A DNA stretch of 64,000 nucleotides from Citrus sinensis (lineage: Eukaryota > Streptophyta > Magnoliopsida > Sapindales > Rutaceae), in assembly GCF_022201045.2 (NCBI RefSeq), contig NC_068564.1, positions 1,860,001-1,924,000 of the forward strand, in the 5' to 3' direction. The stretch's first letter is position 1. The number at the start of each line of letters is the position of its first letter. Below the pieces are notes generated by a model that saw only the letters and a list, made by a program, of their open reading frames with translations, did no database searches and had not been told where the DNA came from. Positions 12,577 through 62,374 of the stretch are shown here, one piece after another. The position numbers and the translations under genes are program-made.

Positions 12577-15500
12577 ATGGGAAGCAGCGTAGTCTTAATG
12601 AGGACTATTTGCTTTGCTGTGTTTCTTGGCTGGCTTCTGGTTTGGGCTCTGATACCAACTAAGGTTTATAAAAATACATGGACTCCTAAGCTTAACAACA
12701 AGCTCAACTCAACATATTTTAGAGAACAAGGTAATTACTTCTTGTCATATATATATATATTTTTTCTTTTTCCCCCCTGTAAGCTAAGCTGAAATAGTAT
12801 TGTTGTTACAGGCACAAATCTTCTGCTTTTCTCGTTTCCAGTGATGCTCATAGCTCTTTTGGGTTGTGTCTATCTTCATCTTCAGAAGAAACCCAATAAG
12901 CTTCAATCCAAACGGTTACAATTTTCTCTTGAATACCTACCATTTGTCAGTCTTCAATTTATCAGCAGCTTTTCATTTTCAACATAATGTGAACTAACTT
13001 ATTGTTGCATGCAGTAAGATGAGGAGCCCTCGTTTATTTTTCTCTCAGCGGCCGGTGCTAGTAATGGCTCCTTTGGGAATAGTTACAGCAATAGAGCTTA
13101 CAATTGCAGTAATGTTTGTCGCATTCTTGATATGGTCTCTTGCTAATTATTTGTATGTCAGCTTTGGTCATCTCCACATGCATAAAGCAGGAGAGAAAGT
13201 GTAAGAAGCAATATCAAATCTCGTCACTTGAACTTTTTTCATCCTCATGAGCAGACATGATCATATGTCATGAATGGTCTATGATTCTCTTCTGATCTAA
13301 ATTTTCATTTCAGTAAACATATATTAAACGAATCCTTCAGAGCTCAAGTCAGCATATATAAAAAGAGGGATCTAATTCTTCATAAATCATGATTACACTC
13401 TTATCGGCAAAAGTTTAGAAAAACTTCATTATAGTACAATCCTCTGTCTAGGGATATTATATTATTCAATTGCTGTAAAAATGACGTGATACAGGGATCA
13501 GGTATCATACATAATTGTATACATATAAGAAGCTCATTATGCGCATGTCTTATTTCTTTGAATTTGGCTTTGGCACAGATGGCAAGCCAAGTTTCGAAGT
13601 GTATCATTAAGACTTGGATACATTGGAAACACATGCTGGGCATTTCTCTTCTTTCCAGTAACTCGAGGATCATCAATTTTGCCTCTTGTTGGACTCACTT
13701 CGGAATCGAGTATCAAGTATCATATATGGCTAGGGCATCTCTCCAACGCCCTTTTTGCTTTGCACGCCGTTGGATTTTTAATTTACTGGGCCATGACCAA
13801 TCAGATGGCTGAGGTACCTTATTAATGCTTTTTGATTAGTCAATGATTTTTGCTTTTTTTCACCGTGCTATGACTTTAAGCCTATGAAGATGATGGTAGC
13901 TTTATCTTTTTATTATCTTTTTGTTCTTCGGAATCCGAGTAACATTGTCTTTTCTCTTTGAAACTTAAGTGAGATTCCTGCTGCTTCCTCACTTTTCTTT
14001 TTCTTTTGCCAAAAAAAAGAAAAAAGAAAAAAAGGGAGAAATAATTTCTGATTGATTTGTCAATGTGTGGGGTAGCTAGTATGCAAGTAAAGTCACCATC
14101 ATTGTAAGACAAAGAAGAGGTACCTAGCTTTATTAATTTGGAGTTACTCTAATAAGTTAATTGATGGGCCTTCGTATCTTGAGTTATGGTGATTGAGGTT
14201 GTTGTGCGGACACACGACTTTTTATATCTATCTATACATAGTCATCTATTAAGTCTTCGTTTTTCTGAACCGCACATGATAATAAACTAATAACATTGCC
14301 CAAGTTATAGTTGGCAACATTGCATAGATGATGCAATCTAATCAATCCACAGTTTACGCACCTTTTAAGAGGCACTATATAATTATACTACATATATGTC
14401 AATTCCCCTTGATCTTTTTTTTGGTTATTTAATAAAGCTATTGTTAAATAATACACAATAGCTGATTTTAAGGCACGTGCATGTCTTCTGATATACTCTA
14501 TAATTTCTTCTCTTGTTGCTTGTAATTGTTATTTACATTTGGGTTTGATTTGGAACAAGCAGGTGCTAGAATGGAGCGAAACTTATGTATCAAATGTAGC
14601 TGGAGTAATAGCTATTGCAATTGCAACGGTGATTTGGGCAACGAGTTTACCTCGCTTCAGACGAAAGATGTTCGAGCTTTTCTTCTACACTCACCACCTC
14701 TACATTCTTTACATCATATTCTACGTATTGCACGTCGGCCCTGCCTACTTTTGCATGATCCTTCCGGGGATCTTCCTCTTTGCCGTCGATCGTTACTTGC
14801 GATTCCTACAGTCCCGAAACCGGGCTAGATTACTCTCCGCTCGCGCCTTGCCATGTGGTGTAGTTGAATTGAACTTCTCCAAAAGTCCAGGTGTCAACAA
14901 AGGGCCTGTTTATAACTATTGTGCTTACAACTTAAATTTTTAAGTGTTTACCCACGTAACTTTACTTGACTAATAACATTCACTAAACGCAGGATCATTT
15001 TACTTGCAGCTAATAATTTCATTCCGTATCATTTTTTTTCTTTTTCCTTTTCCAGGATTGTATTATAATCCCACAAGCATACTATTTGTAAATGTGCCAA
15101 GCATTTCCAAGCTGCAGTGGCACCCATTTACTGTAACTTCCAATTGTAATATGGAGCAAGACAAGCTCAGCATTTTAGTCAAAACTGAGGGAAGTTGGAC
15201 TCAAAAGCTATACCAGCAAATTTCTTCTTCTGTAGACCGTCTTGAGGTGTCTGTTGAAGGACCCTATGGTCCTAATTCAGCTCATTTTCTGAGGTAAATT
15301 GAAGAAATTAAGATAAATGGGCGGTTTTATGAGTTCTATATATGATATAAATTGCTTGCAATATCTTATTCAGTTAATATTTTGTGTCCACAGGCATGAA
15401 TCACTGGTGATGGTGAGCGGAGGCAGTGGCATTTCTCCTTTCATTTCCATAGTCCGCGAGCTTATATTTCAAAGCAATAACAACCCGGACTATAAAATTC

Positions 15501-16360
15501 CAAATGTGCACCTAATTTGTGTCTTCAAGAAATCTGCTGACTTATCCATGTTAAATATCATGTTGCCAGTTTCCGATGCGCCTACGGAACTTTCGAAACT
15601 GCAGTTGCAAATCGAAGCCTATGTCACTAGAGACTCAGAGCAGCCTAAAACAGACACCCTGAAAGAACTTCAATCTATTTGGTTCAAGTCAAATCCATCA
15701 GACTCACCGGTTTCCGGAGCTCTAGGCTGTAACAGTTGGCTGTGGCTTGCTGTAGTCATAGCGTCATCATTCGTTATGTTTCTCCTCTTGTTGGGCATTG
15801 TCACTCGTTTCTACATATACCCCATTGAGCGAAATGGCACTGAAGTTTACCATTATTCCTACAAGTGTCTCTGGGATATGTTTCTTGTTTGTGTTTGTGT
15901 TTTCTTGGCTTCCAGTGCTGTTTACTTGTGGCTTAAGAAACAACAGAATGCTATCGAAGTGAAGCAAATTCAGAACATGGAGGTGCCAACACCAACAACA
16001 TCACCATCTTCATGGTTTCATACTGCGGATAGAGAGCTCGAAGAAAGCCTTCCTAATCAATGTCTTGTACAAGCCACCAAATTTCATTTCGGTGAAAGAC
16101 CAAATCTCAATAGTATGTCGCAGAGTAGTAGATTAAAAGTCCCGGCGCCTCAATTCTATATATATACGTAATTACTATTTTCAAATAAACTACTGAATGG
16201 TTGTATTGTTGTTTCTGCAGAAATACTGCTTGACGTAAAAGGAACAGACGTGGGAGTTTTAGTATGTGGTCCGAGGAAGATGCGGCATGAGGTTGCAAAG
16301 ATTTGTTCATCTGGGTTGGCTGATAATCTGCACTTTGAGTCTATTAGTTTCAGCTGGTGA
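12577..16360 (+). CDS. FRO: Ferric-chelate reductase (FRO family), copy 1
   Basis: Predicted 700-aa flavocytochrome b that moves electrons from cytosolic NADPH through FAD and two haems to Fe(III) or Cu(II) chelates across a membrane, the reduction step of strategy I metal uptake. Exons: 12577-12730, 12812-12914, 13015-13200, 13579-13813, 14563-14890, 15056-15293, 15394-16112, 16221-16360. An N-terminal helix is followed by the ferric reductase membrane domain with the haem-ligand pattern HIWLGHLSNALFALH (~194-208) and THHLYILYIIFYVLH (~269-283). FAD-binding HPFT is at ~358, nucleotide-binding GGSGISPF at ~423 and CGPRKM in the last exon. Two further hydrophobic helices lie at ~520-600, as in plant FROs. 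ATG 12577 is preferred over the in-frame 12538 because it starts the usual short hydrophilic lead into the first helix. Closest class by eye is FRO2/FRO4/FRO5 (plasma membrane). Confidence 0.92.
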
Positions 16361-18064: not shown

Positions 18065-20325
18065 AGTGGAGCTATTGGCACCCCTCTATTAATCTCTTAA
18101 AACCTCTTTTCTAAACGTATTCCACAAAATAATTTAAAGTTTCACATTTCTTCTATTAACACCTAATCAATTTCCACAAATAACCTTATCACTTTTGCCC
18201 AAAACCCCATTTGTCTCTTTCTTGAGCTCGTTTAAGTTCTCAAATCTCAAATATCAAATGAATAAAACAAATTTGTCTCCTTTCTTTAGTAGCTACATTT
18301 GTTGAAATTTGTCAGTTGTTCAAACTTTTCAAATAAGCTTGACAAATTTGAAAATTCACGACAATAGAAAAGAAAACTCAACATATTATAGTGGTAGAAA
18401 TATTTAGGTAATCTAATAAATAAACTGCAATTTGTTATATTGGATTCTAAACTTGATAATTATATTGTAAATTTGTCAGTTTCCAAGTTCAATATTTTTT
18501 TCTAATTGCACTGGAATTTTTCTATGGATGCAAACAAGTTCTTATCAACTTCTTGAGAAGTAACAATTGCAAAGGGTGTTTATGGTAGATCTTGACCATC
18601 GTGGGAAATGGTTCAATGATAAAAAAAGATTAAATTGCTGGCAATATAATTAAATTATATCATGATTAAGGATTTCTCTATGATGCTGTAATTTTTTTGC
18701 AACATCAATAATGTTTTAATTGTGTGCCATTGGATTAAATCTAATGGTATACAATATTTGTACTAAAGAAAAAAAATTAAAAATAATAGTAAACAGATTG
18801 TTAACCGTTCAAGGGGTGGAGAAATTTTGTAAAATAATTGTGATCACCCTTAGCGTTTGAAGCAATTTCACTTAAATAGCATATTTTATTTAAAATTATT
18901 TTTCTACTCTCCTTTAAATTTGTATTGTGATAATCTTTTTTAAATAAATCTTCCAAAATCTATTATCATTAAGTATAAAATATAATATGAAGTAGGTTAT
19001 TTAACACAAATCAAATAAATAAGTTGCAATTGTAAAATTAATTATATATAATATAACACTAGTAAATAATACAACTAAATACATATATTTAAGTAAGTGT
19101 CATAGGTACATCAATAAACTCACTGGTGAGATTGCTTGTAACCTAAAAAAGACTTAATCACACATATTTTAATAAAATTTAATATCCTATATCAAAATAT
19201 TTATTATTTTATATAATTTTAAGGACCGTTGTATAATTGATTATGAAGTATATATTATTTTTAACACTCGTTTAACATACCTATTCTCTCAGATTTTTGT
19301 TTAGGATTTCTCTATAATATTGTATGAGTTTTTACAGCATTGATAATAGGATTGTTGTGGACTCTTAGATGTTAGGGTTTTCATGTTTAGTATTCATTTG
19401 ATATAGTGAATAAAAAATTAGCTATTTAAATCATAACAAGTAATCTTCATGCTGCAAGTAAATATAGATTTTTTTTATTTTTAATTAATTGATAAAAGAA
19501 AATTTATATTATGATGGATAAAAATCCCAGAATCAATAATGGGATCATTGGATTTAATATTAGAATCTTCACCCTTAATTTAGTTTTAATGGATAAGTAA
19601 TTATGTAACAAGTAATATGCAAGTTGTGATATTTCTTCATATTTTAAATTATTTTTTATCTAATCAATCAATAAATATTTTAAATCATTAAAAAATTAAA
19701 GAAATACAAATAATTTTGGAATTAAAATTATTATATATTAATCCTCTTACTTTACAATTTTACATTTTTTTTTACTTTTACATTTAGTATTAGAAATACA
19801 TTTAATAGCAATAAAATAAATGTAATTAACAAGTAATGGTATTTCAATAATACTTTATATAAAGTTATTACATAAAGTCTTATAATAATTTGTACTGTGT
19901 GAATTTAATTACAAACCATTAATACCTAAACAATAATGATAATAGAAGGCATGGTAATAAAATATTTTATATATGTTTTATTAGTAATACTATGAGTCAC
20001 AACAAATGAGAAATATTTTATTCACCAATGAAAAAAAAATATATGGCTATATAAATATATAGTGAGAAATATTTTGATTTAATTTTTTAACAAAAAATTA
20101 AAATATTAATTTCATGCGATTCAATGGTGGAGGATATGCCAATATGAAATGCTGCTTTGATATGACAATATGAAATGTTGCTTTGGCTTTTAATATTAAC
20201 CATTACACTATAAGATATTAATGACTAAAATATTGTATCAAAATTTTAAGTTCAAGTATCCCAAACCATGTCTTTATAATGGAAATATAAAAACATGCAA
20301 TGAATTTTTTTCTCATTTTGTCATT

Positions 20326-20865: not shown

Positions 20866-21698
20866 TTTCTATCATGTAAGAATATTAATTATAAGATAAA
20901 CAAAAATAATATATATTTTATGATCAATTATACAATAGTCTTAGTATTATATAAAATAATGAACATTTTAATATGCGATTTTAAATTTTATTAAAACATG
21001 AGTGATTAAGTAGTTTTTAAGTTACAATCAATCTCACCAATGAGTTTATTAATGTAACTATGACGTTTACTTAAGTATATGTACTTAGTTGCGTTATTTA
21101 TTAGTATTATATCATATATAAATTTTGTAATTGTAATTTATTTATTTGATTTGTGTTAAATAACATACTTCATATTTATTTTATACTTAATGGTAATAGA
21201 TTTTGGAAGATTTATTTAGAAAAGATTATCACAATACAAATTTAAAGGAGAGTTGAAAAGTAATTTTAAATAAAATATGTTATTTAAGTGAAATTGCTTC
21301 AAACTCTAAGGGTGGTCAATGTGATTTTACAAAAATTTCTCCACCCCTTAAACCGTTAACAAACTGTTTACCATTGTTTTTATTTTTTTTCTTTAGCAAA
21401 AATACTATATACCATTAGATTTAATCCAATGGTACACAATTAAAACATTATTGATGTTGTAAAAAAAATTACAGCATCATAGAGGGACCCCATGATTAAT
21501 TCAGAAACTGCTTTGAAAATCTTTAACAATTTTTTTGTTAATTTCAAAACAAATTGCTGGCGTATTGTGGTGTAAAAAGTTGGTTCAAATTGTCGAATGA
21601 TTACATTGTCCTTTAGTGTAATTATAATTGAGGGTAAAAGTGTAAACATGGAGGAGGGGTTTTAATAGGAGATTAGAAGGGTGCTAATAGCTTCGGTC

Positions 21699-23085: not shown

Positions 23086-23166
23086 ATTACAAGTTCAAAG
23101 ATTTAGAGATAAAATTATTTGCTAAATTAAGGTTTTTTTTTTCGTTCCTTGATTCAATAGTTTTAA

Positions 23167-23818
23167 GGGAAAAAGACATCGAGTCCCCTAACATTTGAGA
23201 AAAACGACATAAAATCCCTTAACGGTTTGAACAAGATATATAACCCTAATTTTTATTATTAAATTATATTTATTTTAAAAGTAAATTTATTCTAATTTAT
23301 AATTACTATTATGTCCCTATAATAAATAATTCAATATATTGACCTAAAACATATCATGGGTGTAATGAAATTAACAATTTTTTATTTGAAGCTGAAAATT
23401 AAAATGTAATTACGTTTTGCCCAAATTATTCACTCTAAATTATGAACATACCCTTCTCAATGATAAATTTGATTTTAAATTTTCTTATTATTCATCATTT
23501 TTTTATCATCCTATCATTAGGAAGAGTATACTAATAATTTAGAGTGAATAATTTGGGCAAAAAGTAATTACAACTCAATTTTAAGTTTTAAATAAAAAGT
23601 TGTTGATTTCATTATACATGTTATCAATGACATATCTTAAGTCAATATATTGAATTATTTATTATAGGGATATAATAGTAATTGTAAATTAAAAATAAAT
23701 TTACTATTAAAACAAATGGAATTTAATAATAAAAATAGGGTTATATGTTTTTTTTTAAAACGTTAAGGGGTTTTATGCCCATTTTTCCAAACTTTAAGGG
23801 GTTCATTGTCCTTTTACC
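23167..23818. mobile_element. 652-bp foldback MITE
   Basis: Two inverted arms of ~310 bp. The left end reads GGGAAAAAGACATCGAGTCC and the complement of the right end GGTAAAAGGACAATGAACCC. Further inside, the left-arm block with GCCCAAATTATTCACTCTAA recurs inverted in the right arm near 23540. Flanks TAGTTTTAA (23158-23166) and TAGTATTAA (23819-23827) are a 9-bp duplication with one mismatch, which suggests a Mutator-type MITE. It has no coding capacity. Confidence 0.8.
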
Positions 23819-23827
23819 TAGTATTAA

Positions 23828-24830: not shown

Positions 24831-27766
24831 ATGGAGACCATTAAATCAGCTATAAAGCTGTTAGTGATGGTGATCTTTCTTGGGTACATACTGCTGTGGA
24901 TCATAATGCCCACTAACAAGTTTTACTTAAACTGGTTGCCTCAAATCCAATCAAAAACAAACTCCACTTATTTTGGAGAACAAGGTTTGTGTTAACAGTC
25001 AAATTCTTTGCTTCTGTTGTCTTGCTATCTGAAAAGTGTGTTTAGGTTCTTTCGTATCAACAAGCTATCAAGTACACGGGAGTGAATATTTTTTAAATAC
25101 TAATTATAAAGTAAAAATGGGTGTTTACTAAATACTTTATTTGACGTGCATTGTAAACTCATTAAACAGAAGCATGACAGTTGTCAATATTTCCAACATA
25201 TCACTATTTTAAATAAATCAAAGAATCTAACACATGTTTCTATTGGAATAGGTGCGTATATGTTAATTTACTCATTTCCCATTCTCTTCATTGCTGCCTT
25301 GAGCTGTTTATACCTTCATCTTGGTAACAATTGCAATGATAACAATGTTAAAAGGTAATAACCTCTCTATTAATTACTCCCAGCTTTTCTTTCGTATAGT
25401 TGATTTATAATAATGAAGTAACGAATGGTCCCTCTGAAGCAGCAGTGAGGGGGAGAATATTTCCCATTTTGCCACGTGGCGACGACCAGTGCTTGTAAAA
25501 GGCCCTCTTGGGATTGTTTCTTGGATAGAGCTGTCATTTGCAATAATGTTCATTGCACTGCTTGTTTGGTCTTTCTCCTCTTACTTGCACGGAATGTTTG
25601 CACAAATTAGCCAACAGGCACCCGCACATGATGGAGAGCAAGCGTAAGACTTAACACATTTTGCTTTTCTGATTCACTTTGAATGATACAATAATTCAAA
25701 CTAATTTGGTTTGAGCGGTTTGGCAGGTGGGTAGCTAAATTGGAAATGTCAGGCCTAACGCTAGGCCTCGTTGGGAACATTTGCCTAGCCTTTCTCTTCT
25801 TTCCTGTGACTAGAGGATCATCAGTCTTGCAGCTCATTGGCCTCACCTCCGAGGCCAGCATCAAATATCATATTTGGCTCGGGCACATTGCCATGACCAT
25901 CTTTACTGCACATGGTTTATGTTACATCATCTTCTGGGCCAAGACAGACCAAATCTCTCAGGTAACAAAATTTTGTTCCAATTTTTTCACATTCTCTTCT
26001 CAGTTGGGTCCAAATTACTTATTACCTTTTTGCTGAATGTTAGATGCTCGGATGGGACAAGGTAGCTGTGTCAAATGTGGCTGGAGAAATAGGTTTGCTT
26101 GCTGGATTAGCCATGTGGATAACAAGTATCCCACGTATTAGGCGAAAGATTTTTGAGCTCTTCTTCTACACTCATCATCTCTACATTCTTTTTGTTGTGT
26201 TCTTTGTGCTTCATGTGGGGTTCTCCTATTCTTGCATCATCCTTCCCGGCTTCTATCTCTTCTTGATTGATCGATATTTGAGATTCCTGCAATCCCAACA
26301 AAGAATTCGTTTGGTTTCAGCTCGCATTTTACCCTGTGATACTGTTGAATTGAACTTCTTCAAGAGCCCAGGTCAAGCCTATTCGACCAACGACTTGATA
26401 TGATGCCTATCGTTGATTCTGGTGCAGAAAAGCCCTCGATTTACTGATATTCTGTACATTGTTGTTCTGGTGCAGGGTTAAGCTACAATCCGACCAGCAT
26501 TTTATTTGTAAATGTGCCTGTGATTTCCAAGTTGCAATGGCACCCTTTTACAATTACTTCTAGCAGCAATGTGGATCCTGACAAGCTAAGTGTTGTCATC
26601 AAAAGTGAAGGAAGTTGGTCTCGCAAGTTGTTTCAAAAGCTTTCTTCTCCCTCGCCTCTCGACCGCCTTGAGGTCTCCATTGAAGGACCCTATGGACCTG
26701 CCTCAACCCATTTTACAGGGTTTGTATTTATATATGTATATACATATAATCAGCCAACAGTACAAGAAAATTTCAAAAATTTTGTTGTGAAAATACATAA
26801 TTTGATTAACATGAAGCTATTCTGCAGGCACGACATGCTAGTGATGATAAGTGGAGGAAGTGGCATTACTCCTTTCATCTCCATCATCCGCGAGCTGCTC
26901 TCTTTGGCCAATAATTCAACTGGAAAAACTCCACGGATTCTCCTTATATCTGCTTTCAAGAAATCTCAGGATCTCGCCATGCTAGACCTCATTCTCCCAG
27001 TTCTAGGCACAACCCTTGACATTTCTCCTTTGGAAGTGCAAATTGAAGCCTATGTAACAAGGGAGAAAAAATCCGCAGAAAACAACCGCCAACTTGTTCA
27101 AACCCTATGGTTCAAGCCCAAAGCAGAAGACTCCCCAGTTTCTGCAATTTTAGGCCCCAAAAGCTGGCTCTGGCTCGCCGCAATAATTTCATCTTCATTT
27201 ATCATATTTCTAGTGCTCATTGGCTTTCTTACCCGATACTATATTTACCCAATTGACCATAATTCTAATACGATATACGCTACCTCATGGAGAGGCGGTC
27301 TAAACATGTTGCTCATTTGCGTCTCAATAGTCATTACAGCAACGGCAGCTTTTCTTTGGAACAAAAAGCAGCATACCAAGGAAATGACACGGATTCAAAA
27401 CACCGAGAAACCAACACCAATTGCTTCCCCAGCCTCATGGTTTTACAATGCAGAGAGAGAGCTGGAGAGCCTTCCCCATCAGTCTTTTATTCAGGCCACC
27501 AGAGTTCATTACGGTGAAAGACCTAACCTGAAAAGTAAGCTTTCATTTTTATCTTCCAGTCTTACTAAATCATATTAAATTAGTTTGCTTCCTTAACAAG
27601 GGTGACTGGGAAATTCTTCTTGGCAGAGCTACTAATGGAAATTGAAGCAACAAATGTTGGAGTTCTTGTTAGCGGGCCCAAAAAGATGAGACAAGAAGTG
27701 GGGGAAATCTGTGCATCTGGTTTTGCAAACAATCTCCATTTCGAATCCATAGCCTTTAGCTGGTGA
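24831..27766 (+). CDS. FRO: Ferric-chelate reductase (FRO family), copy 2
   Basis: Predicted 702-aa paralogue of the FRO at 12577, same reaction and domain order. Exons: 24831-24984, 25252-25354, 25446-25643, 25727-25961, 26044-26371, 26476-26719, 26828-27534, 27627-27766. Exons 1, 2, 4, 5 and 8 have the same lengths as copy 1 (154, 103, 235, 328, 140 nt) and intron phases match. Haem-ligand motifs are HIWLGHIAMTIFTAH and THHLYILFVVFFVLH. FAD-binding HPFT, NADPH-binding GGSGITPF and SGPKKM are all intact. The fourth intron is only ~82 bp, against ~750 bp in copy 1. It begins METIKSAIKLLVMVIFLGY, a short lead into the first helix. It looks functional. The two genes may differ in tissue or metal response, but nothing in the sequence decides this. 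Confidence 0.92.
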
Positions 27767-28189: not shown

Positions 28190-31100
28190 CTACGATTCAT
28201 TAGCTACAAATGAATCCTCTGGGTTGTTATTATACCTCAACCGCCGCATAACTCCATCACCATCATTATCATATCGCCTTACTCGATGAATAACCTCATA
28301 TCGGTTCCCCGGCTTTCTTCTATCATCAAGATCAGTACCTTCATACTTATATCCCCTACCAGCACCACTGCCCATATCTGGAAATCTTCTGGGAGGTATC
28401 ATGGGTCTAAAGGGACGTGATGAATCAAACCTTTGGCTCTGACGGAACATCCTAACCGGTGATTTCCTATCCCTGAAATTATCTAAACCAGAGATCCGGT
28501 CATCAAACCTGGGAGGATTGCGCTGTGGCGACATCCGATTTCTTGGTGGGGACATGAACCCTTCTTCGTATTCAACTTCAAAACGCTTCTTAAAAGGCGC
28601 CCTCACCCTATTTATTCTGGTAGACCTAAAATCTGGCGACCTGCTGCGGCGTCTGGACCCCTCATTTCGATCCCTCATTGAAAACCATGAACTAGGCGAC
28701 CGGCTTCTGGATCTCGACCTGGGTTTCTTATAAGGTTGAGCATAATGGGGTCTCTCCCCACCAAGTGGAGAAATACTTCTCTCTCTCCTGGCTATCCGGT
28801 GTGGCATATGATCATCAGCAGGATAGTTGGGCATTGGCCTGCGATAGTCCTCCCTGAAGCCTCTACTGATGCCTTCTGGATATCTCCTAAACCTACTCCT
28901 ATCAGGACCAATATCATCTCTAATAGGAGCTGTTCCAGTATAAATATCATCCCTGCAGCCCAGGGGTCTCCGATTAATGGACCGATAGACACTGTTTGAG
29001 GAAGAGCTCATATATTGCCTCCGTACACGGCTGTCAAACCCTTCAACTCCAGATACTTCAAACATTGTTCGGTCTGAGGCCATTAAAAATCCACGGCTCT
29101 CAACAACACTTCTTGGCCGAGGACGCCCAGATCCGTAAGGGCCATGGCAAGGAGGAGACTGACGGGTATTGACAATGTGGCCACCTCCTGGGCTTCTACG
29201 ACGCATATGCAAAGAAAATCTATCCCGTCCCATGAATCTGTTGTTTGGATCAGACTCCCTTTCTGACCGAGGACATAAATCATCAAAATTATTGGATCTG
29301 AAACAAAAGACTAGTTAGCAACCAGCCAAAGAGAAAATTGAATGTATATCAGGAAAAATTAATTGGAACCATATAATTACCCGCATCTCTGTAGAACATT
29401 GGAAGATAAAGATCCTTGAGTGCGAGACAACAAGTCCCTTCTGGATGCCCTTGCTCCAACCATTGTATAAGTGAAATCTTTACCACTGGACTCTTCACAA
29501 TCAGCAGTATCTTTCTTTATTTTGTTGCCATGAGCTGCTTCTGAAATTCTGGCCTCAGAGCTCATCAAAGAATCTCCAAAAGCATCACCTACAGCACCTT
29601 GTTCAGATTTTTCAGTCACCTCACCCGATCCTAGACTAGACCCACTCTCAAATTTTCTTTTATTGTCATTATCTTCAGCTTCAAAAGTACATAATCTTTC
29701 TCCATCACATTCAGACTCGTAGTCTACTTGCTCAATTTCTTCACCCTCACAATCATTTTCCTCCCAGCAATGTGCATCTGTTTCCCTCAATTCGCCGTCC
29801 TCAAACTGAGAATCATAACCATCCTGCAACTCCCTAGAGCTTTCCATGAGAACTGTGTGTACCTTGCCATCATGAGAAGTGTCTGACACACAAATGTCGT
29901 CACAGGATTCTTCAAAGTTGATCTTACATGAGCTGTTTGAAGGAGCACAACCTCCGGATTCCTCATTAGCAAGTCCACACCCCGTATCTAATCTAGCAGT
30001 AACAATTCCAGAAGACATGTGCATCGGTTCTTCAGACCCAACATGCAGTAAAGCAGTCTCCCCTTTTGCTTCCTCAGCTACCACAGTCTCGACTTCCTTA
30101 ACAGATCCACTAGATGCTACATATTCATACTTGGGTGAAGGATGATCAACACACGCTTCCTCCGCTTTACTTGCAGGCTCTGCCATGACAGGATCAGCCG
30201 CTTTACTTGCAGGCTCTGCCATGACAGGATCAACCGCTTTACTTGCAGGCTCTACCATGACAGGATCAGCTTGTTCACAATTGTCCATGCTAATCATCTC
30301 CTTGTCAGTATTTACGTCATTATGTAAGGAAGATGCTCTACCAGAATCTTCACCATTTTCATTTAGCGAGGTCCTGTCAGACTCACAAACAACCCTATCT
30401 AAAGCTGATACATGAGTAGAAGCAACATCATATTCATCCACCTGTGCACTTTCAGCAGGCACAACTTTTTCCTCTTGGACACTAGAAGCACAACATTCTG
30501 TCTTCTTCTCAACGTAACAGGGTAGTGATGAATCGCTTGCCACATTATTCTGGCACACAACACTAGCTATGTGTGAATTTAAGCTTACAACTTGAGTGGA
30601 GTCTTTCAGATCAGCATCACATTCATTAAGGCCGCGATCAAGGCCAGAACTAGCTTCCATTTGATTGTCTTCTCTGTCTGATCCCTTAGCCAAGCCTCTC
30701 CCATCCGAAAACAAGTGGGTCTCCTCATGTACTTCAGTTGAAATCTTATCATTTTTGAGAATTTTAGTTTCACTCTCTGTCTCAAAATATTTCAAAATAT
30801 GATGCTCTACACTCCCAACAACCGAAGTACCTTCTACATCTTTTGTTTGAGAACCAACACTTACACCATCACAAGGTTCCTCCCATGCATCCATGACTAC
30901 ATTTAAATCCCAATGTAGTCTTGAAGGTACAGACTTTTCTAAAGTTCTGTTTTCCTTTTCATTAGAAGAATTCTGCACAAAAGTAGCACTAGTATCTTGA
31001 ACAGAAGAATCCTCTATTCCATCTGCATCTCTTGAGGGGCAATCAGCTGCCTCCATCACTGCAACAGCTTCTCCCATAAGCACTGTAGAACCATTGTCTT

Positions 31101-31757
31101 GTACAGATCCTTCCACCGCTGGCTTTTCCTCTGGGTGGTCAACATCAGCATCAAAACTATTACCGCATGCCGCAGCTGCAAGTATCTCAATACCAGAGAA
31201 GTCTTCTCTATAACCAAGCTTCTCCTTCAATGAACCTGAAATTTTCTCATCAACAACACCATGACTAGGAGCCACCATAAGAAGAGACTTTCCATTTGAA
31301 TTTGAACACGCCCCTTGACCTGAAGCATGTTCAACCACTTCAATGGATGATGGGGTCTGAGGCCGCGGAGGTGATGGGGATGAGGACCGAAAGTTAAATT
31401 TCCTTTTCTTAATAGGCACGTGCTCTATTTCATCGCTGAAACGTCGTCCAAGAACAGCCACACCAAGCTGCCAGAGGAAGAAAGCAAACCATAATCATGA
31501 AGCAGAATGCAAAGTTAACAATGAAGTTAAAAAGCAACAAACAAAGCCACAATAATTACCTTCTCAGACTCCGAAACTGTTGTATCCTCTGCCCTTTTGC
31601 AAACATTATTTTCAGTTACCTCCGCACTCATAATCAAGTTTCTACCTCCTGGTTTCCTAGTACGCCTTGTTGCGCTCCTATTCCCTTTAGCTACTTTCTT
31701 CCAAGTGAGATCAGGATTTATGAAATTTGTAAGTTCTAGACCTGCTGTGCTCATCAT
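28190..31757 (-). CDS. Large acidic, Arg/Ser-rich nuclear-type protein
   Basis: Predicted 1130-aa protein if translation starts at ATG 31757. Coding exons (5' to 3'): 31757-31560, 31467-29381, 29297-28190. The start region has STAGLELTNFINPDLTW, then a basic patch and VPIKKRKFNFRSSSPSPPR, which looks like a nuclear localisation signal. The middle (~130-760) is acidic, Ser/Glu/Asp-rich and low in hydrophobics. The last ~370 residues are Arg-rich with RSRSRSRSPS and repeated RSPxRxxPxR motifs, as in splicing-associated proteins. It probably corresponds to the Arabidopsis 'dentin sialophosphoprotein-like' gene At5g52530 (memory and synteny). The frame is open 38 codons upstream of 31757 to the acceptor at 31872, so an earlier coding exon is possible. 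Molecular function unknown. Confidence 0.75.
30168..30275 (-). repeat. Three 36-bp coding repeats in the acidic/RS gene
   Basis: Three in-frame copies encode DPVMxEPASKAx in a row. The repeats are nearly identical at DNA level, differing at a few bases, so expansion was recent. They lie in the disordered acidic region, and copy number probably varies between alleles. Confidence 0.85.
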
Positions 31758-31872
31758 CCTTTTAGGTACAGATCCTATCCCATCAACTAATGGTTCAACA
31801 CAACAAGTCTTGCAGGTAGCCGTAGCTTCTTGCTTTCCAGGGAAATCCCCTAGAGCAAGTACACGATCACGT

Positions 31873-33260
31873 CTGAGAAAGGTAACATAAAACTTCAATT
31901 AATATACCAAAACATTTCAATTAAGGGAACACCGCTTGTATACTGAATGCAACACAACTAATAATAGTATTTAGTGAAGCAATTCTTTATTCTTTATTTT
32001 CTTTAGGGTGCTCAAGCTCCATCCCAGCCCAAGAAACATCAGAAATCAGAATAGCCCCGAAGAGTGAAGATCTGTATTCAATTACCAAACTGAGCTGAAT
32101 ATATAAATATCACCTGGCACCTAACTACTATGTGACTAATAGCACAAGTAGACAACGACCGATACAGGTGGCCCCTTACCCACCTCAAAGCAATCTTTTA
32201 AGCTTAAAAGTACAAGATGGAACAATAAGAACTCCCTCGGCAACTTACTTAAATTTAATTCCCCCAATCTTGACCGATAAATTTTTGATAGGGAAGGTTC
32301 TCCTCAGTGATTACCAGCTGGACTCAAGAATTCTCAGATCTGCAAACTACTACAACCTGTAATAATATAAAGTTCAGATCAGCTTAAAGTAGAAGACGAT
32401 ATATAACATTAACAGCTAGTCCAGCTAATAGATAACATATTATCAAGCCCAAACGCTGATAAGAAATTATAAGACTGGCGGTATATGCCTCCATAAGCAA
32501 GGCAGATCATGATTTCCTCAATTCAATAAGCAGGTTCCAACACTAGGAACCAGAGCACGAGGATATAATAACAGACATAAAAAAGATTAAATATTCAGAT
32601 GATGCTTTCTAATCACAGGCTTCTAAGTTGAAAAATCAACATCTATGAATCTGTTGTTTCGAAATTCTCCTCGCAAAGTCCTCAGATCCATCAAAAGCTT
32701 TGAGATTTCGGAGATGCATATATCATCCGCAACCAATAGATCCAATCATGTAAACAAAAGATTAGGAGTTCAAATCTCCTATAAAGAAATTTTAGATAAA
32801 AAATTCATCTGCGCCATTAGCATCCAGATTTTATTCAAGCCGAGGTCATCGATGAAGACACGAGATTAATGTAAAAGATTCCTCGGATTCGCCGATACAA
32901 GAACCCCTATACATAAAAATCGTCGCTTCGGCATGTGAACATTATCCTCTTCAGAGAGAAACCCTAACTTTAATCTTCGGCAGCCGATGAATTACAAAAT
33001 CAAAGCCGATTTAGATCTTTTCAGGAGAGAAGCTTCTCCGCTGTTTTGAAGAAAAACAACCACAAACAAAATAATAAAAAAAAGCTTACGATTTTTTTAT
33101 TATTATTATATACCTGCCGCTTCTTTCAACTCAAATCGCCGCCGAGTTTCACGATTCGAACGAAAAGCTTCGAGAGATTTAAACAAAATCTTTGAATCTC
33201 GCTAAAGAAGATTACGATCTTCTCCTTCTTCTTCTTCTTCCTCTTCGTCTTCTTCTTTGG
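31873..33260 (-). other. 5' leader exons and introns of the acidic/RS gene
   Basis: Two probable untranslated exons can be placed. Exon one ends with GCGGCAG and a GTATAT donor (boundary at 33114). Exon two spans 32315-32356, with acceptor TATTATTACAG and a GTAATC donor. Intron one is ~750 bp and intron two ~440 bp. A TTC repeat in the plus-strand reading (33220-33240) falls in the leader as GAA repeats. Confidence 0.55.
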
Positions 33261-33266
33261 TCTTGT

Positions 33267-33274
33267 TATATATT
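33267..33274 (-). promoter_or_regulatory. TATA-like box of the acidic/RS gene
   Basis: TATATAAC on the minus strand, ~150 bp upstream of the first donor. The equivalent position in the duplicated copy upstream of RUB1 is a stronger TATAAATA (40465-40472). Confidence 0.45.
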
Positions 33275-34477
33275 ACAAAGGCTTTCACAATATCGACGAC
33301 TATTGACCGTCCGAATACGGGACCTTTGATCGCAAATCCATCAAACGCTGCGCCTCCTCCTCAAGAGCCAAATCTTCTCTGTGTGTTTTGGATGAGACCT
33401 TCACAGCCCTATCATCACTATGTATTTATCATTGACTTTCTCCCGACGCTACCCTCGCTCATTTTGTCATTTTTCCAATATCGCCCTCGCCAGGGGCCTC
33501 TAATTTCGGGCCCTGCCAAAAATTGAATGCGGTACGTATTGGGGGAAAAGGAGAATTAATAAATGTGCCTTTTTTTTTTTTCTCGAAGTGTCGATTTTCT
33601 TGGCTATAACAGGGGGGGAGAAAGTCAATAGTGAAAGAATAAATGAAAAACCAACGATATATTTTTTAAATAAAATTCCACAAAAGTTGAGTCTCAATTA
33701 GTGCCTTCACTGTTTACATATACATAAGTTGAAATTTCCTCATAACTAATAATAATATTTTTACTGGCTGGACGGATTTGTGCTGCGTTGATTATGACTG
33801 AAAATTGTAGAAACTCAAATTGTTTTGTGCCCGCAGAATTAACTCATAGTCAACTGGTGAAGCAATTGGAGAGGGGAAAGGCAAATTAATTGACTTTTGG
33901 AATTTATATCAAACACGACAAGTGTTGTTGAGGGTGCCTGGTGCCTCCACTTAGCATGTCACTCTCTGAGATGCGTTTGCTATGGCCTTTTTAAACGGAG
34001 CTTCTTCGACTGGAGTTTTTACCCAATAAAACAAATTCGTTGCTTGCGTATGATTGTAAGAATGTGAGTTTTTTTAATTAAAAATTATAATATTATTTTG
34101 ATAGATAAATTTTTTGAATTTTATGTTAAAAAAAAGGAATGAAATACAGTGTGAAGAGATTCCTCGTTTGAATAAAATAAAAAATTAAATTGGAAAATAG
34201 ACAAAAATTTCATATACCAAAAAAAAAAAACACGCACGCTGCAATGAACCAAATTTCCACTAATTTTCTTTTCTTTTTAACTTTTCACCATCTGTTATGT
34301 GTGTGATCTAAATTCAGCGTCCGCTTCATTTTTCCCTTTTTGGATTGGTGTTTACAAATCAAAGTAATTTTTTCCCATAAGTTAATCGCTGTATACTTTT
34401 CATTTAAATCGATTATATGTTATAGAGTAATAATCGTAGATATACAAACAAAATTTTGTGTATAGATTCTATTTATC

Positions 34478-34570
34478 CAAGGAGACTTGTCGCCACTCGG
34501 CCAAGTGGTGAACCACTATCCTCGTAAGCGTGAGGGCAGTAGTTCGAATCTATATGGACTCAATATTTCT
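34478..34570 (+). mobile_element. tRNA-derived SINE-like head
   Basis: An A-box-like TCGGCCAAGTGG (34497-34508) and a B-box-like AGTTCGAATCT (34541-34551) are spaced ~33 bp apart, as in tRNA-derived RNA polymerase III promoters. No cloverleaf with paired acceptor ends is evident, so a SINE remnant is more likely than a tRNA gene. The 3' end of the element is not resolved. Confidence 0.5.
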
Positions 34571-35129
34571 CAATTAAATATAATTGTACGGAATTAATTT
34601 ATATTTTTCTCCCTTATAAAATATGAGTGGAAGAAATATTTCTCTTCTGTGAGAATATTATTTATCTGGGCCTAATATTTCATAGAAACTAATGTAATAT
34701 TATAGTTCGAATTATATTATCTCATGACTCTTTAGTAATTTATACTTAAAATTTAAGAATATGGGTTTGAGTTTTAACATACGCTAGGATTCTATTCGCT
34801 TCTAACTTTAAAAGTAGTTTTTTTTTTTTTCTCACTTTAATATGGGTGGATGGAGTAGAATTTTCAATATCGATTACTTGAGTAAATTTTTATTGTAAAT
34901 ATGAATCGATTGTAATATAAAAAGGAAAAGGGTCAAAAAAAAAAAAAGGAAGAAGAAGGAAGGAGACATGTCTATTCTTCACTTGTCAAAAAAGTTTTTG
35001 CATCCCAAGGCAGGAAGGAATTATGCTTTGAGCACAAAGTTGGATTTCCGGTAATTCCTAAAAAACAAGGCAAAGCAATGTGATTGTGAGACATTCTATG
35101 CATAATTTGATTCCTTTCTTTCCTCCACA

Positions 35130-35195
35130 CCCAGTGACCTTGAAGCCGCCATCACCGCCACCGCCACCGCCGCCGCCACCACCACCATGCCCCGG
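35130..35195. repeat. CCACCG/CCG trinucleotide tract
   Basis: A GC-rich stretch of repeated CCG and CCA triplets in otherwise AT-rich DNA. The minus-strand frame across it (Ala/Val-rich) has no support as a gene. Confidence 0.6.
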
Positions 35196-36174
35196 GCATC
35201 ATGATGATGAGCGACCCCACTAACCCCAAAATAAATAAAAAAATGAGGGGAAAAAAAAAAGGTCAAAAGATTCTCTTTCCTCTTTGCCAATTGATATCAG
35301 CATCACCAACTGGACCCACTCAAAGGTGTACTCCACCTAATTTTATGTCCCTTAGCCCTTTGCTCTTCTAGTGTGTTTTTATTTTCCTTCTTCTTTCTTT
35401 ATTTTATTTTAAACTTTTCTTTGTTTTTCTTTAATTATCATTTCTTCCATATTGAAGAAAAAAAAAATCATGAAAAAGGGAAGCAAATTCATATGCTAAT
35501 TCCACCCAGTTCAGTTTCCCATTGTGAAAGTGAAGGATCAAATTCGATTTGAATTTGAATGAAGCACAAAACAAAAAACAAAAATAAACGATTATAACGT
35601 ACATTTATCGTGAGGTAGGCGGACTCCACCAAAGAAAATGAAGAATTTGTAATTTAATAAAGCAAAGAAAGTACTAAATAAAAAAGGAAAGTTCATGAGA
35701 AATTTCCTACGCTTCTCCTTTTTTTCTGCAGACATGTCTGAGCACAAGATTAAACGCTCTACAATTCAACATATTTTCCACAAAGAGTTGGAAAAAATAT
35801 ACCGCACAGGAAAGGGGAAAAAGGAGTATTAATATCTTATAGTCAAATTGCTCTTAATTACCTACTGTACCACGCCGTTTGTTTTTTTATTTATTTGAAG
35901 TTTGAATTTTAATTATTTTTATATTTTTTTAATTTTTTAATTAATTTATTTATTTATAATTTATATATGATCATAAGATATTTAGGTATGAATGGAAAAA
36001 GTTAAATATTTTGATTTTTACGTGAATGACAAAATACTTAAATGAAACTTTAATATTCTATTTTATTAGCACCTCTATTAAATACATTTATTTTCTATAT
36101 ATAAATTATCCTTTAATTTTTTTTTATTTATCAATTTTCTTTGTTCTAAGCATATTCAACTATCATTTTTTCTA

Positions 36175-36784
36175 TTTTTTTTGTGAATGAGAATTTTAAA
36201 CATAATGAGACTTAAGTGAGTGTCTTTTATAATAGGTCCATCACTTTATACATACGTGTTAGATATATATATTTTTTAAAATTTTTCATGCTTTGTTAAA
36301 ATTTACATTCGATGTTTTTTACTAATCAAATCATTTATTTAACAAATAAATATAAATATTATTAATATTTATGAGATTATAACATCAAAGTACCATATTT
36401 CAAATATTTTCTTTTTAAAAAAATAAATGATTCTACACTTATACTAAGATATTCAAAAAAATAAAAACAAACATGTCATTCAAATATATGAATTCAGACC
36501 TATTCAAATTCATTCAAATTTTAAATGAAAATACAAACAAATTATTCAAATACACACATTTACATCTATTCAAACTCATTCAGGTTTTATATTTAAAAAA
36601 ACACACACACTATCTTTTTTTTTTTTTATCGAACACTACCTTAATATTATACATAAATATATGAATATAATATTAGGACTGGTGAGTGTGCACAACCAAG
36701 GACAATTGTAAATGCAACAATCAAGCCCAAAAACTAGGTCATTGTTTATATTTTACATCAACTCACATTAATTCAGACAAGGGA
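36175..36784. repeat. ~610-bp tandem duplication, copy 1
   Basis: Nearly identical to 36806-37406, with an offset of ~630 bp. Both copies contain TCCATCACTTTATACATA and AGGACTGGTGAGTGTGCACA. No coding capacity. High identity suggests a recent event. Confidence 0.85.
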
Positions 36785-36805
36785 ATGAGAATTTTTTTTC
36801 TTTTT

Positions 36806-37406
36806 TTTTTTTTTGTGAATGAGAATTTTAAACATAATGAGACTTAAGTAAGTGTATTTTATAATAGGTCCATCACTTTATACATATGTGTTAGATATAT
36901 ATATTTTTTTAATTTTTCATGCTTTGTTAAAATTTACATTCGATTTTTTTTACTAATCGAATCATTTATTTAACAAATAAATATAAATATTATTAATATT
37001 TATGAGATTATAAAATCAAAGTAACATATTTCAAATATTTTCTTTTTAAAAAAATAAATGATTCTACACTTATACTAAGATATTCAAAAAAATAAAAACA
37101 AACATGTCATTCAAATATATGAATTCAGATCTATTCAAATTTTAAATGAAAATACAAACAAATTATTCAAATACACACATTTACATCTATTCAAACTCAT
37201 TCAGGTTTTATATTTTAAAAAAAACACACACACACTATCTTTTTTTTTTTGATCGAACACTACCTTAATATTATAAGTAAATATATGAATATGATATTAG
37301 GACTGGTGAGTGTGCACAACCAAGGACAATTGTAGGTGCAACAATCAAGCCCAAAAACTAGGTCATTGTTTATATTTTACATCAACTCACATTAATTCAG
37401 ACAAGG
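36806..37406. repeat. ~610-bp tandem duplication, copy 2
   Basis: Second copy of 36175-36784, joined to it through a T-rich tract. It differs by small indels (one loss near 37137) and a few substitutions. It ends ~340 bp downstream of the RUB1 stop codon, so it could affect 3' processing of that gene only indirectly. Confidence 0.85.
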
Positions 37407-37744
37407 AAAAACAGAGCCCCCAAGTCTATGACACAATTGTTTGAATTTAAAAGCTTTTCACTAAATTTCTCATTGGAGTATCAGTACATTAAAAAAGAAA
37501 ATTCCCATTATCAACTTGGATCTTCTCCGGGGAATGGTCATTCAAAAAAAAAAAAACCGAGTAAAGACTACTAAGCCTGACAGGAAAATATATTAAGCGA
37601 AAGAAAGAAGAAACAACAATGTTTAGTCCAAAGAAATAGAATATGTTCTTTGTTTTCAAACTCATTCAAGTTCATCAAGTTCCGTGGCCAAATAAAGCCT
37701 ACATAACGTAGAATTCTGAATTCTCTTCATGCGAAAAGAAGCAT

Positions 37745-40435
<2,691 letters not shown>

Positions 40436-40464
40436 TCCTCCCCCTCCTCCTCCTTCGGCTTAGT

Positions 40465-40472
40465 TATTTATA
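40465..40472 (-). promoter_or_regulatory. TATA box in the duplicated promoter upstream of RUB1
   Basis: TATAAATA on the minus strand, ~125 bp upstream of the leader-exon donor. It is a better TATA match than the homologous site of the acidic/RS gene at 33267. Confidence 0.5.
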
Positions 40473-41293
40473 AAGGCTTTCATTTTATCGACGATAATTA
40501 ACCGTCCGGCTGGGCCTCCTGCTCCTCCAGAGCCTAATCTTCTCTTTGTTTGTCGACGCTACCCTTGTTTATTTTTGCCATTTTGACAATAATGCCCTCG
40601 TTAGGAGTCTCCTATTTCGTGACTTGTCAAAATCGAATACGGAAGAAGGTTTTGATAAAGGGGAACAAAAAATAATGCCACGAGATTTCAATTATTCTGC
40701 GTCCTTAATTTATCTATTAAATAATTAATTTTATAATATAATAATGAGCCGAGCCAATTGGAGTTTTTAGCAAATTGCTAATATCGAATACAGCAATTTC
40801 CTTTGTTAGTCCTCCAATGTTTCAATATCTCTCATTAGCTTGTTACCATCACTGAATTTCCTCTAATTTTTCACTATCTAGCCTTTTGACTTTTTGGAAA
40901 TGGATAAATTATATTTATTCTACAACGACACCTCAACAACAAGCACAGTATATTAATTGTGAATCACTTCTCGATAAAATACAAATGCCATTCATTATGA
41001 GTCTAAATATTTGGTGCAATTAATTATAATTAAATCTATAGACCATAAGCCATGCTCAAAGCAAAATAAGGAATTTCTTATTTTAATTTTAAAGAAAGTA
41101 CTAAAGTACAGGAAAGTTCATAAGAAATTTCCAAAGCCTCTCTTTTCTGAAGACATATCTAGTACAAGATTAGTCTCTCTGACTCTACATTTCAATATAT
41201 TATGGACAAACAACCAGAAAAATGAACAGATAACAAGGGAGGACAAATGCATGAAACTGAAAATGACAAAAGTCTTATTTGGTATCGAGATGT

Positions 41294-41520
41294 TGTAACT
41301 TTTAAGTTACCGCTGCTGTAAAAAAAAAACTGTAAATATATGTAGTAAATATAATTTTTAAATAATAATTTTAATAAAATTAGTAAAAATATAATAATTT
41401 TTTCACATACAAGTGTAACATCAAATTAACTTAGCTCCCAAACTACAACAATTAGTGTTACCAAACACTTTAATGCTATATCTTAAAAGTTATAACTGTA
41501 CAAACTCAATCTTAAATAAA
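41294..41520. mobile_element. ~230-bp MITE with GTTRTAACTTTTAAG ends
   Basis: The left end GTTGTAACTTTTAAG and the complement of the right end GTTATAACTTTTAAG form terminal inverted repeats. The interior is AT-rich with TACCAAACACTTTAAT near the right end. A related copy lies at ~61985-62200. No reliable target duplication was seen. Confidence 0.55.
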
Positions 41521-41880
41521 ACTAAAGAATGTGAACCATATAAACTGATAAGTGCTTTTAAAAGTTCCGATAGGAACTGAGAGTAGCCTTGTATTTAAGA
41601 GGAATCTCCTATATTAATATCTAAATCAAATTGCTCCAGATAACTGACTCTGTCAGACTCTAATTACACTTACCTTCAATGAGAAAACAAAAATGATAAA
41701 AAAAAATTGACAAGCTTCATCCATCTATAATAATCAATAAATTACATTGCACTCAATTTAATGAAAATTATGTACTTCTAGTATAATAAAAAGAAAAAAA
41801 GCCTTAACTTTTTAAGGCGGATACCTGTAGCGAAAAAAGTTTTATCATTCAGACGATTGAAGACAGAGCAAGATGAAAAC

Positions 41881-47237
<5,357 letters not shown>

Positions 47238-61345: not shown

Positions 61346-62374
61346 TTACATGTTCTTAAGCAATTGATTAGCGATTTAATTATTTGTTTAAGTACTTTAA
61401 AATTTATTAAATCCTCTTTGGCGGGACCACTTAATATTCATATTAACAAGAAATTGACTATCGCTCGGTGTCCTTTTGGTTTTTTGCGAATAATGAAATA
61501 AAGACCCCTTAAAACTAATTTTTCATCAATTTTAACGATTTAATTAAATTGCGCTTTGGATTTATGTAGTTAGATGACCATCTTGAATTGTTCTATTAAA
61601 GCATTATTATATTGTTAATTTCAAAAAAAAAAAAAGTGTTATATTGTTGTTTATTGTTCTACTAAACAACCATCCAATCAAATATCCGTTCTAAAATCCA
61701 AATGAAAGTTCGACTACCAAATTACATTAAAATATTTCGGAGAATTTGCGCGATTTTACATATTTCAATGGAGAAAAAAAATATTTATTTAGCTATTGTT
61801 TGGTTAATACATAACTAAAAAATTGTTTAATATGTTCATTTGTGTTCAATAATGTGGGCGACGTTATTCACTAGATCATTTCATAATCAAACCAAGTGTC
61901 GTATAAAATACTTATTCTTAATTTTGTGAATTGATTGGTTTCTTTTATGTCATATTTAGAATTGATGTGTTGTTCCTTTTAAATTACAGCTGCTAAAAAA
62001 AAATAATTATAAAATAAAAGTTAATAATATAAAGTAAATATAAACTTTAAATAATAATTTTGATAAAATTATTAAAGATATAATAGATTTGTTATCATAT
62101 AAGTGAAAAATAATATCAATACAACTTACAAGTTACAGCAACTTGTGTTTACCAAACACTTTAATATTGTAACTTAAAAGTTATAATTGTTCAACCTCAA
62201 TCCCAAAAACACCATTAAATTGGTTATAAAAAAAAAAGAATCGAAATGGAAAAAAAAAAGCTGATCCCAATTTAATTGGTTCGATTCAATTCAATATAGT
62301 TGTATCGAGTCATGATAAGCTAAAAAATCACTAAATCAAACCCAAACATTGCCCAGTACATCCAAACATTTGAT

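Follow-up and report, generated by a model that had tools for sequence, protein, structure and literature searches.

RUB1 of Citrus sinensis, a probable chimeric duplicate carrying promoter sequence of its neighbour

RUB1 of Citrus sinensis is probably a chimeric duplicate, a reading to which we assign a probability of about two in three. Judged from the sequence, a RUB transcription unit appears to have been joined to copies of the promoter of a neighbour, the acidic/RS gene. The initial annotation had raised promoter capture as a possibility. At the DNA level capture is well supported, by a third promoter copy, by a second RUB locus for which no match to the promoter was found upstream and by the similar divergence of the two duplications. 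Local DNA rearrangement thus seems to have changed the control of a vital gene. Coordinates are positions in the window, the whole 64,000-nt stretch analysed (NC_068564.1, 1,860,001-1,924,000 of the forward strand); the genes, promoter elements and introns described lie on its minus strand. P1 denotes the copy of the acidic/RS gene, and P2 and P3 denote the copies upstream of RUB1.

Copies of the acidic/RS promoter and leader

RUB1 is located between the acidic/RS gene, which has two coding open frames (29380..31898), and a gene that we take from its residues to encode a prolyl-tRNA synthetase (ProRS; 41881..46261 by its open frames, with the stop codon at 41883-41881 and an approximate 5´ end). 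No Pfam family was found in the acidic/RS gene, and a query covering 307 residues of its N-terminal part detected no second copy at E values up to 1. The ProRS-like gene gave one HGTP_anticodon match just below the cut-off, and its frame at 45863-46261 gave no match. The two flanking genes are presumably adjacent in Arabidopsis, and the interval from At5g52520 to At5g52530 in that species is not known to contain a RUB gene. The accessible part of the literature on At5g52530 contains only an RNA-editing study.

In the acidic/RS gene, P1 (32357..35853) covers the promoter with the DNA upstream of it, the leader exon and the first leader intron. P2 (39653..41636), in front of RUB1, is a second copy of this promoter, with its leader exon and leader intron. 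Self-comparison of the window revealed four direct matches, all collinear, which pair 39650-40245 with 32354-32955 (E 4e-82), 40320-40508 with 33094-33313 (E 4e-18), 41057-41210 with 35630-35784 (E 4e-18) and 40554-40642 with 33444-33532 (E 2e-8). A short match at the outer edges, whose score is reached by 0 of 200 shuffles, connects P2 at 41636 with P1 at 35853. The duplication proposed earlier between 32-36 kb and 39.6-41.7 kb is thus real. Its blocks are collinear and, as described, on the same strand, but the copies are interrupted, and P3 intervenes between P2 and RUB1. A stretch of ~2.1 kb in P1 (33.53-35.63 kb), including a dispersed repeat at 34.50-34.73 kb, has no counterpart in P2, which contains ~0.4 kb of other DNA instead. 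A further dispersed repeat, found by self-comparison and also present at 61949-62202, is inserted in P2 at 41272..41520. The P1/P2 homology ends at the intron acceptor (CAGGTT). A genome search with 39600-40500, which skips very common words, returned four matches, namely the query itself and three pieces of P1. An origin of the leader block as a dispersed repeat, present at many loci, is therefore rejected; the initial annotation had named such an origin as a finding that would refute it.

In P1, the 18-base promoter motif AAGATTTGGCTCTTGAGG (33359..33376) is located upstream of the TATA box TATATAA (33272-33266), and in P2 the corresponding motif AAGATTAGGCTCTGGAGG (40524..40541) is located upstream of the TATA box TATAAATA (40472-40465). 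Sequence and alignment place GT...AG leader introns at 32357..33113 in P1 (leader exon end 33114, next exon start 32356) and at 39653..40339 in P2 (leader exon end 40340, next exon start 39652); the P2 leader exon is estimated at ~40440-40340. The TATA box, donor and acceptor are kept in P2 when the sequence is read directly, and the predicted splice from 40340 to 39652 agrees with the positions given earlier. No ATG was found in the spliced P2-RUB1 leader; the scanned pieces omit one G per exon end, which cannot create an ATG.

P3 (39588..39644), which the initial annotation missed, is located directly after the P2 acceptor. It is a partial core-promoter copy between this acceptor and the RUB1 5´UTR, with the 18-base motif at 39641-39624 and a TATA-like TTTAAATA at 39606-39599. 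In each of two scorings, none of 300 shuffles reaches the score that P3 obtains against the P1 or P2 promoter, and the lowest counts among the control comparisons (exon 2, the P intron, DNA upstream of the second RUB locus on C6, two far-upstream parts and the RUB gene) are 27/300 and 69/300. An origin of P3 from remains of acidic/RS exon 2 was rejected (27/300 shuffles reach the strict score and 69/300 the loose one), as was one from the DNA upstream of the C6 locus (112/300 and 211/300). With up to one mismatch allowed, the 18-base motif, which was derived from the P1, P2 and P3 copies themselves, has six matches in 300 Mb, three of them exact (P1, P2 and P3, on one strand) and three elsewhere with one mismatch; the reversed-pattern control has none. 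The TATA-like box of P3 is weaker than the P2 TATA box, and the spacer sequence is lost in P3, both of which count against our preferred reading. Foreign promoter sequence, in the form of P2 and P3, thus lies upstream of RUB1 on the same strand.

The RUB1 unit and its counterpart on C6

RUB1 contains three coding exons, at 39417..39509, 38349..38608 (with a PF00240 ubiquitin family match in the open frame) and 37745..37856 (including the stop codon), which encode an intact product of 154 residues. One ubiquitin is joined head-to-tail with one RUB that ends in LRGG and a short tail, and introns are present, as in ubiquitin-NEDD8 fusion genes; a protein-structure sequence search gave ubiquitin-type matches only. 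The genome has one other three-exon RUB locus, on C6, another chromosome. The transcription unit common to both loci (37460..39584; BLAST pieces between 37479 and 39585) spans the 5´UTR to ~285 bases beyond the stop codon and keeps the introns. A retrogene with an acquired promoter is rejected because both RUB1 introns are kept.

Both proteins are intact and show a single difference, in the cleaved tail. With dN of 0.0056 and dS of 0.32 between the loci, the RUB protein is under purifying selection. Since the proteins differ only in the cleaved tail, RUB1 can differ from the C6 locus only in expression. PsaF, which we take to be the neighbour of Arabidopsis RUB1, has a single match on C2 and none in the window or in 86 kb around the C6 RUB locus. 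RUB1 protein is reported in sweet orange fruit in the accessible part of PMC7021301, where the two loci are not distinguishable.

The homology between RUB1 and the C6 locus begins at ~39584, a few bases from the end of P3, and the sequence is common only across the transcribed unit. BLAST found no P-like match in ~6.8 kb upstream of the C6 ATG, and the P-like score in the 3.3 kb upstream of the C6 RUB is reached by 78/200 and 8/60 shuffles. The DNA upstream of the C6 locus contains repeated stretches, so a P-like promoter may have been lost there. RUB1 combines sequence of two sources, in that its RUB unit matches the C6 locus and its upstream unit matches P1 of the acidic/RS gene.

Origin and use of the promoter copies

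P1 and P2 have diverged by K2P 0.23-0.33 and the RUB non-coding DNA of the two loci by K2P 0.21-0.46, figures that depend on the alignment and on hand-cut pieces; identity of the P1/P2 leader intron is 84% in another alignment. The two splits appear similar in age. The RUB introns are equally or somewhat more diverged than P1/P2, so RUB could predate the copying of P.

We propose that an intron-containing RUB (ubiquitin-NEDD8 fusion) unit was placed between the ProRS-like and acidic/RS genes, directly behind P2 (long and distal, with leader exon and intron) and P3 (short and proximal, reduced to a core and its TATA-like box), such that P3 would have come to abut the RUB1 5´UTR. The acidic/RS gene would be the donor, and the arrangement may have arisen at once or in events close together in time, replication template switching being one candidate mechanism. 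The captured promoters would set RUB1 expression. On this model RUB1 would most likely be transcribed from P3 (predicted starts near 39575, in its own 5´UTR) and possibly also from P2 (predicted start near 40440), the distal leader then entering the RNA by splicing of 40340 to 39652. Cap sites only near 39570, which the initial annotation regarded as contrary to capture, would still be compatible with it, since the promoter at that position, P3, also duplicates that of the acidic/RS gene. A more detailed version is tentative and rather doubtful: one replication-based event would have copied the neighbour's promoter twice, as P2 and P3, and joined the RUB unit almost exactly at the transcription start, leaving RUB1 with two serial captured promoters and under common regulation with the acidic/RS gene, and the C6 RUB under the old control. 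If true, promoter capture would be the whole divergence of two RUB loci with the same mature proteins.

The most serious competitor, which falls somewhat short of even odds and overlaps with the chimeric-duplicate reading, is that P2 is a dead by-product of local duplication, that RUB1 is driven only by P3 or by its own native last bases ahead of the start, and that the spliced leader is never made. The splice sites of P2 show no convincing excess of conservation (P = 0.04, 0.05 and 0.19, in windows chosen after viewing the alignment), and the regions around them are compatible with constraint acting on just one of the copies (P = 0.63, 0.87 and 0.70 for half the mid-intron rate). As the splice-site neighbourhoods are not clearly above the mid-intron in conservation, P2 may be decaying, which is also consistent with its repeat insertion and a long AAT run adjoining the donor. 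However, its TATA box, donor, acceptor and CTGAT branch-like site are intact, and the leader lacks an upstream ATG.

The reverse direction, in which P was native to an old RUB1 site and the acidic/RS gene received P1, is unlikely. The similarity of P1 and P2 is symmetrical, and a RUB non-coding divergence at least equal to that of P1/P2 leaves room for RUB having occupied the site earlier. This direction is opposed by the C6 locus, whose upstream DNA has no P-like match, and by P3, which is a truncated fragment rather than a full native promoter. The outer edges also argue against it: P2 begins ~245 bases beyond the ProRS-like stop codon and P1 leads into leader exon 2 of the acidic/RS gene, the layout predicted if a single P originally spanned the interval between these two genes, which we take to be neighbours in Arabidopsis. 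Remnants of the acidic/RS gene or of the P leader were not detected between RUB1 and the repeat at 35879..37160 (of 200 shuffles each, 66, 22 and 156 score at least as high; in a second comparison of the RUB1-to-repeat DNA, the score is below the best of 60 shuffles), and ProRS 3´ DNA was not detected beside P1 or after RUB1 (score below the best of 60 shuffles).

Less probable still is that a transposable element (a Helitron, Pack-MULE or similar) brought in a RUB gene together with a piece of P. The block is indeed flanked or interrupted by two dispersed repeats, the one inserted in P2 and that at 35879..37160 between RUB1 and P1, whose right part is tandemly duplicated together with its flank (36166-36785 and 36798-37409). 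The two repeats nevertheless do not match each other in the window self-comparison, one of them is inside P2 and not at an edge, and the second copy landed right beside the first. It is very improbable that P3 resembles the promoter by chance or convergence, with a native RUB1 core promoter and P2 as the only copy: P3 is short (57 bases), its alignment needs gaps, its TATA-like box is near the position of the C6 locus's own CATATAAT and the motif was built from the three copies, but no shuffle reaches its score in either scoring, the motif, even when one mismatch is tolerated, occurs elsewhere only about once in 100 Mb, and P3 has no similarity to the C6 upstream DNA.

Relation to known systems

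Chimeric gene duplicates are defined, in the accessible part of PMC3449122, as paralogs that combine at least two donor sequences, one or more of them genic. RUB1 resembles them in that its donors would be a RUB transcription unit and a neighbour's promoter and leader; it differs in that the chimera is only regulatory or untranslated, and the mature proteins are unchanged. Tomato SUN, according to the available portion of PMC7072075, was carried into a DEFL1 intron by the Rider retrotransposon, and its high expression is attributed to the DEFL1 promoter. Both cases would involve a relocated gene copy with the promoter of a resident gene in front. In contrast to SUN, the donor promoter itself would have been copied, the donor gene is still adjacent, and our reading includes no putative carrier element. 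For Arabidopsis AOP2/AOP3, the consulted part of PMC3095303 describes a reported promoter exchange by inversion, which was not found within 2 kb in that study's own Ler stock. There too a neighbour's regulatory region would stand in front of another gene, whereas the RUB1 case would be a duplication of an unrelated gene's promoter.

RUB1 shares its protein layout and a conserved intron with the plant RUB1/RUB2 ubiquitin-NEDD8 fusion genes in PMC3968751, the accessible text of which describes no captured promoter for them and reports that Arabidopsis embryos without both RUB1 and RUB2 arrest at the two-cell stage. Because they have the same mature proteins and different regulatory DNA, the two citrus loci may be a clean natural example of duplicates that have diverged solely through replacement of a promoter, and the putative donor promoter, still next door, allows a direct comparison.

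Gene order and the duplicated promoter block

The genome searched is a 299.7-Mb, 11-contig assembly. The window covers C9:1860001-1924000 of this assembly and is nuclear DNA of a plant. On the minus strand, a GRAS gene (PF03514) is followed by a ProRS-like gene (stop codon 41883-41881), the ubiquitin-RUB fusion gene RUB1 and the acidic/RS gene. The Arabidopsis counterparts of the genes other than RUB1 are presumably At5g52510-52530, a run of adjacent genes. One paper (PMC8001311) annotates At5g52530 as dentin sialophosphoprotein-related. Elsewhere, the window contains a tandem pair of similar genes (5165-7357 and 7999-10503; the tested frame of the first is DUF819, PF05684) and two other genes, similar to each other and in direct order about 10 kb apart (13623-16115 and 25771-27537), the second being ferric-reductase-like (PF08022, PF08030). 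Self-comparison also revealed long inverted repeats at 443-1555 (69% identity) and 23166-23819 (78%), both palindromic in layout, and at 18676-19262 with 20902-21484 (89%).

The initial annotation had proposed that the promoter and leader of the acidic/RS gene are duplicated upstream of RUB1. The window self-comparison bears this out as four collinear blocks common to 32.35-35.78 and 39.65-41.21 kb, which belong to the acidic/RS gene's own upstream region, promoter, leader exon and leader intron (P1, 35853-32357) and to a second copy (P2, 41636-39653), both on the minus strand. A short match at the outer edge pairs 35853 with 41636, and the homology ends at the acceptor CAGGTT. Ungapped aligned bases are identical at 530/629 positions in the leader intron, 84/92 in the leader exon and 65/81 in the core promoter; a second alignment program gave 73-80% identity over four cut pieces. 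The copies do not form one unbroken duplicate, because dispersed repeats interrupt both outside the leader: P1 at 34500-34730 (not seen in P2; best 40 of 205 genome candidates scored) and P2 by another (best 40 of 1369 scored). When the whole genome was searched with 39600-40500, the matches were this segment and three parts of P1, nothing else, so the leader block is not a dispersed repeat of many loci.

Directly after the P2 acceptor, a 39644-39588 segment (P3, minus strand) presents the motif AAGATTTGGCTCTGGAGG, ACGG, AGCC and a TATA-like box in the same order as the P promoter. Its scores against P1 and P2 exceeded those of 300/300 shuffles in two scorings. In comparisons with exon 2 of the acidic/RS gene, the P intron, the far-upstream parts, the RUB gene or the C6 upstream DNA, its score was reached by at least 27/300 shuffles. 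A degenerate motif derived from the three sites themselves has six matches with at most one mismatch in 300 Mb, three being these sites (exact) and three lying elsewhere with one mismatch; the reversed motif has none. The promoter match and the rarity of the motif therefore indicate, at the sequence level, that the DNA immediately before the RUB1 5´UTR is a further copy of the P promoter.

RUB1 and its counterpart on chromosome C6

RUB1 has three coding exons and encodes an intact 154-residue ubiquitin-RUB protein. Plant RUB1 and RUB2 are described as ubiquitin-NEDD8 fusions, and arrest at the two-cell embryo is reported for the Arabidopsis double knockout (PMC3968751). Among 93 protein-search matches, mostly ubiquitin-type, all three exons recur only at C6:10234594-10232889, with the same intron positions. 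A single residue distinguishes the two proteins; it lies in the C-terminal tail, beyond LRGG (GL versus SL). The coding changes comprise 27 synonymous and 2 nonsynonymous (averaged paths; dS 0.32, dN 0.0056). DNA similarity spans about 39584-37460, with none beyond. BLAST found no P-like match in about 6.8 kb of DNA preceding the ATG at C6; the best P-like score was reached by 78/200 shuffles in the gene-proximal 311 bases and by 8/60 in the next 3.0 kb. Within RUB1 intron 1, about 420 bases (38698-39118) are absent from the C6 intron. Polyubiquitin-type repeat clusters lie at C6:10.60-12.27 Mb and C9:25.99-26.03 Mb, on the chromosomes of both RUB loci.

Direction and age of the duplication

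The outer end of P2 lies about 245 bases beyond the stop codon of the ProRS-like gene. P1 extends into the acidic/RS gene. We assume that the Arabidopsis order is ProRS, P and acidic/RS; if this order is ancestral, P2, P3, RUB and the later repeat constitute an insertion that duplicated P. A 307-residue query found no second acidic/RS copy in the genome, and P is not seen in the upstream DNA searched at the C6 locus. The acidic/RS gene is the probable donor of P (probability roughly 0.75-0.8). Copying from the RUB1 side to the acidic/RS gene is unlikely; it would require an ancient RUB gene here that Arabidopsis has since lost.

K2P distances between P1 and P2 are 0.26 and 0.33 for the intron (two cuts), 0.33 for the promoter together with the exon, and 0.23 for an upstream piece; the alignment behind the identity counts given above shows a lower divergence. 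For RUB, dS is 0.32 and the non-coding K2P values are 0.28, 0.36 and 0.46 (intron pieces) and 0.21 (3´UTR). All K2P pieces were hand-cut, one of them being only 60 bases long. Within this scatter the duplications of P and of RUB have similar ages, that of RUB being equal or somewhat greater, which is compatible with a single event without proving one. A dispersed repeat lies between RUB1 and P1 (35879-37409; best 40 of 437 genome candidates scored), and a tandem duplication has doubled its right part along with some flanking DNA. These copies (36166-36785 and 36798-37409) are 94% identical, so the tandem duplication is younger than P1/P2.

Candidate RUB1 promoters and known systems

In P3, the TATA-like box (39606-39599) precedes the likely start site, within the shared RUB1 5´UTR, by about 30 bases, and P3 can therefore serve as a putative core promoter. 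P2 may provide a distal start, estimated near 40440, with a leader intron whose GT, AG and CTGAT branch-like site are intact; the spliced leader contains no ATG. Compared with the mid-intron rate, the donor region has 6 mismatches/70 (P = 0.04) and the acceptor 7/60 (P = 0.19) or 7/76 (P = 0.05), all compatible with constraint on one copy only. Such splice-site conservation does not prove use of this candidate leader.

With RUB1 as the putative derived copy, the locus fits among chimeric gene duplicates as defined in PMC3449122. Promoter capture by gene copies is already known, tomato SUN and DEFL1 being an example (PMC7072075). RUB1 is distinct in that the donor promoter and donor gene both persist next door, RUB1 is preceded by two promoter copies in series, and the mature proteins are the same at both RUB loci, so that only regulation can diverge between them.
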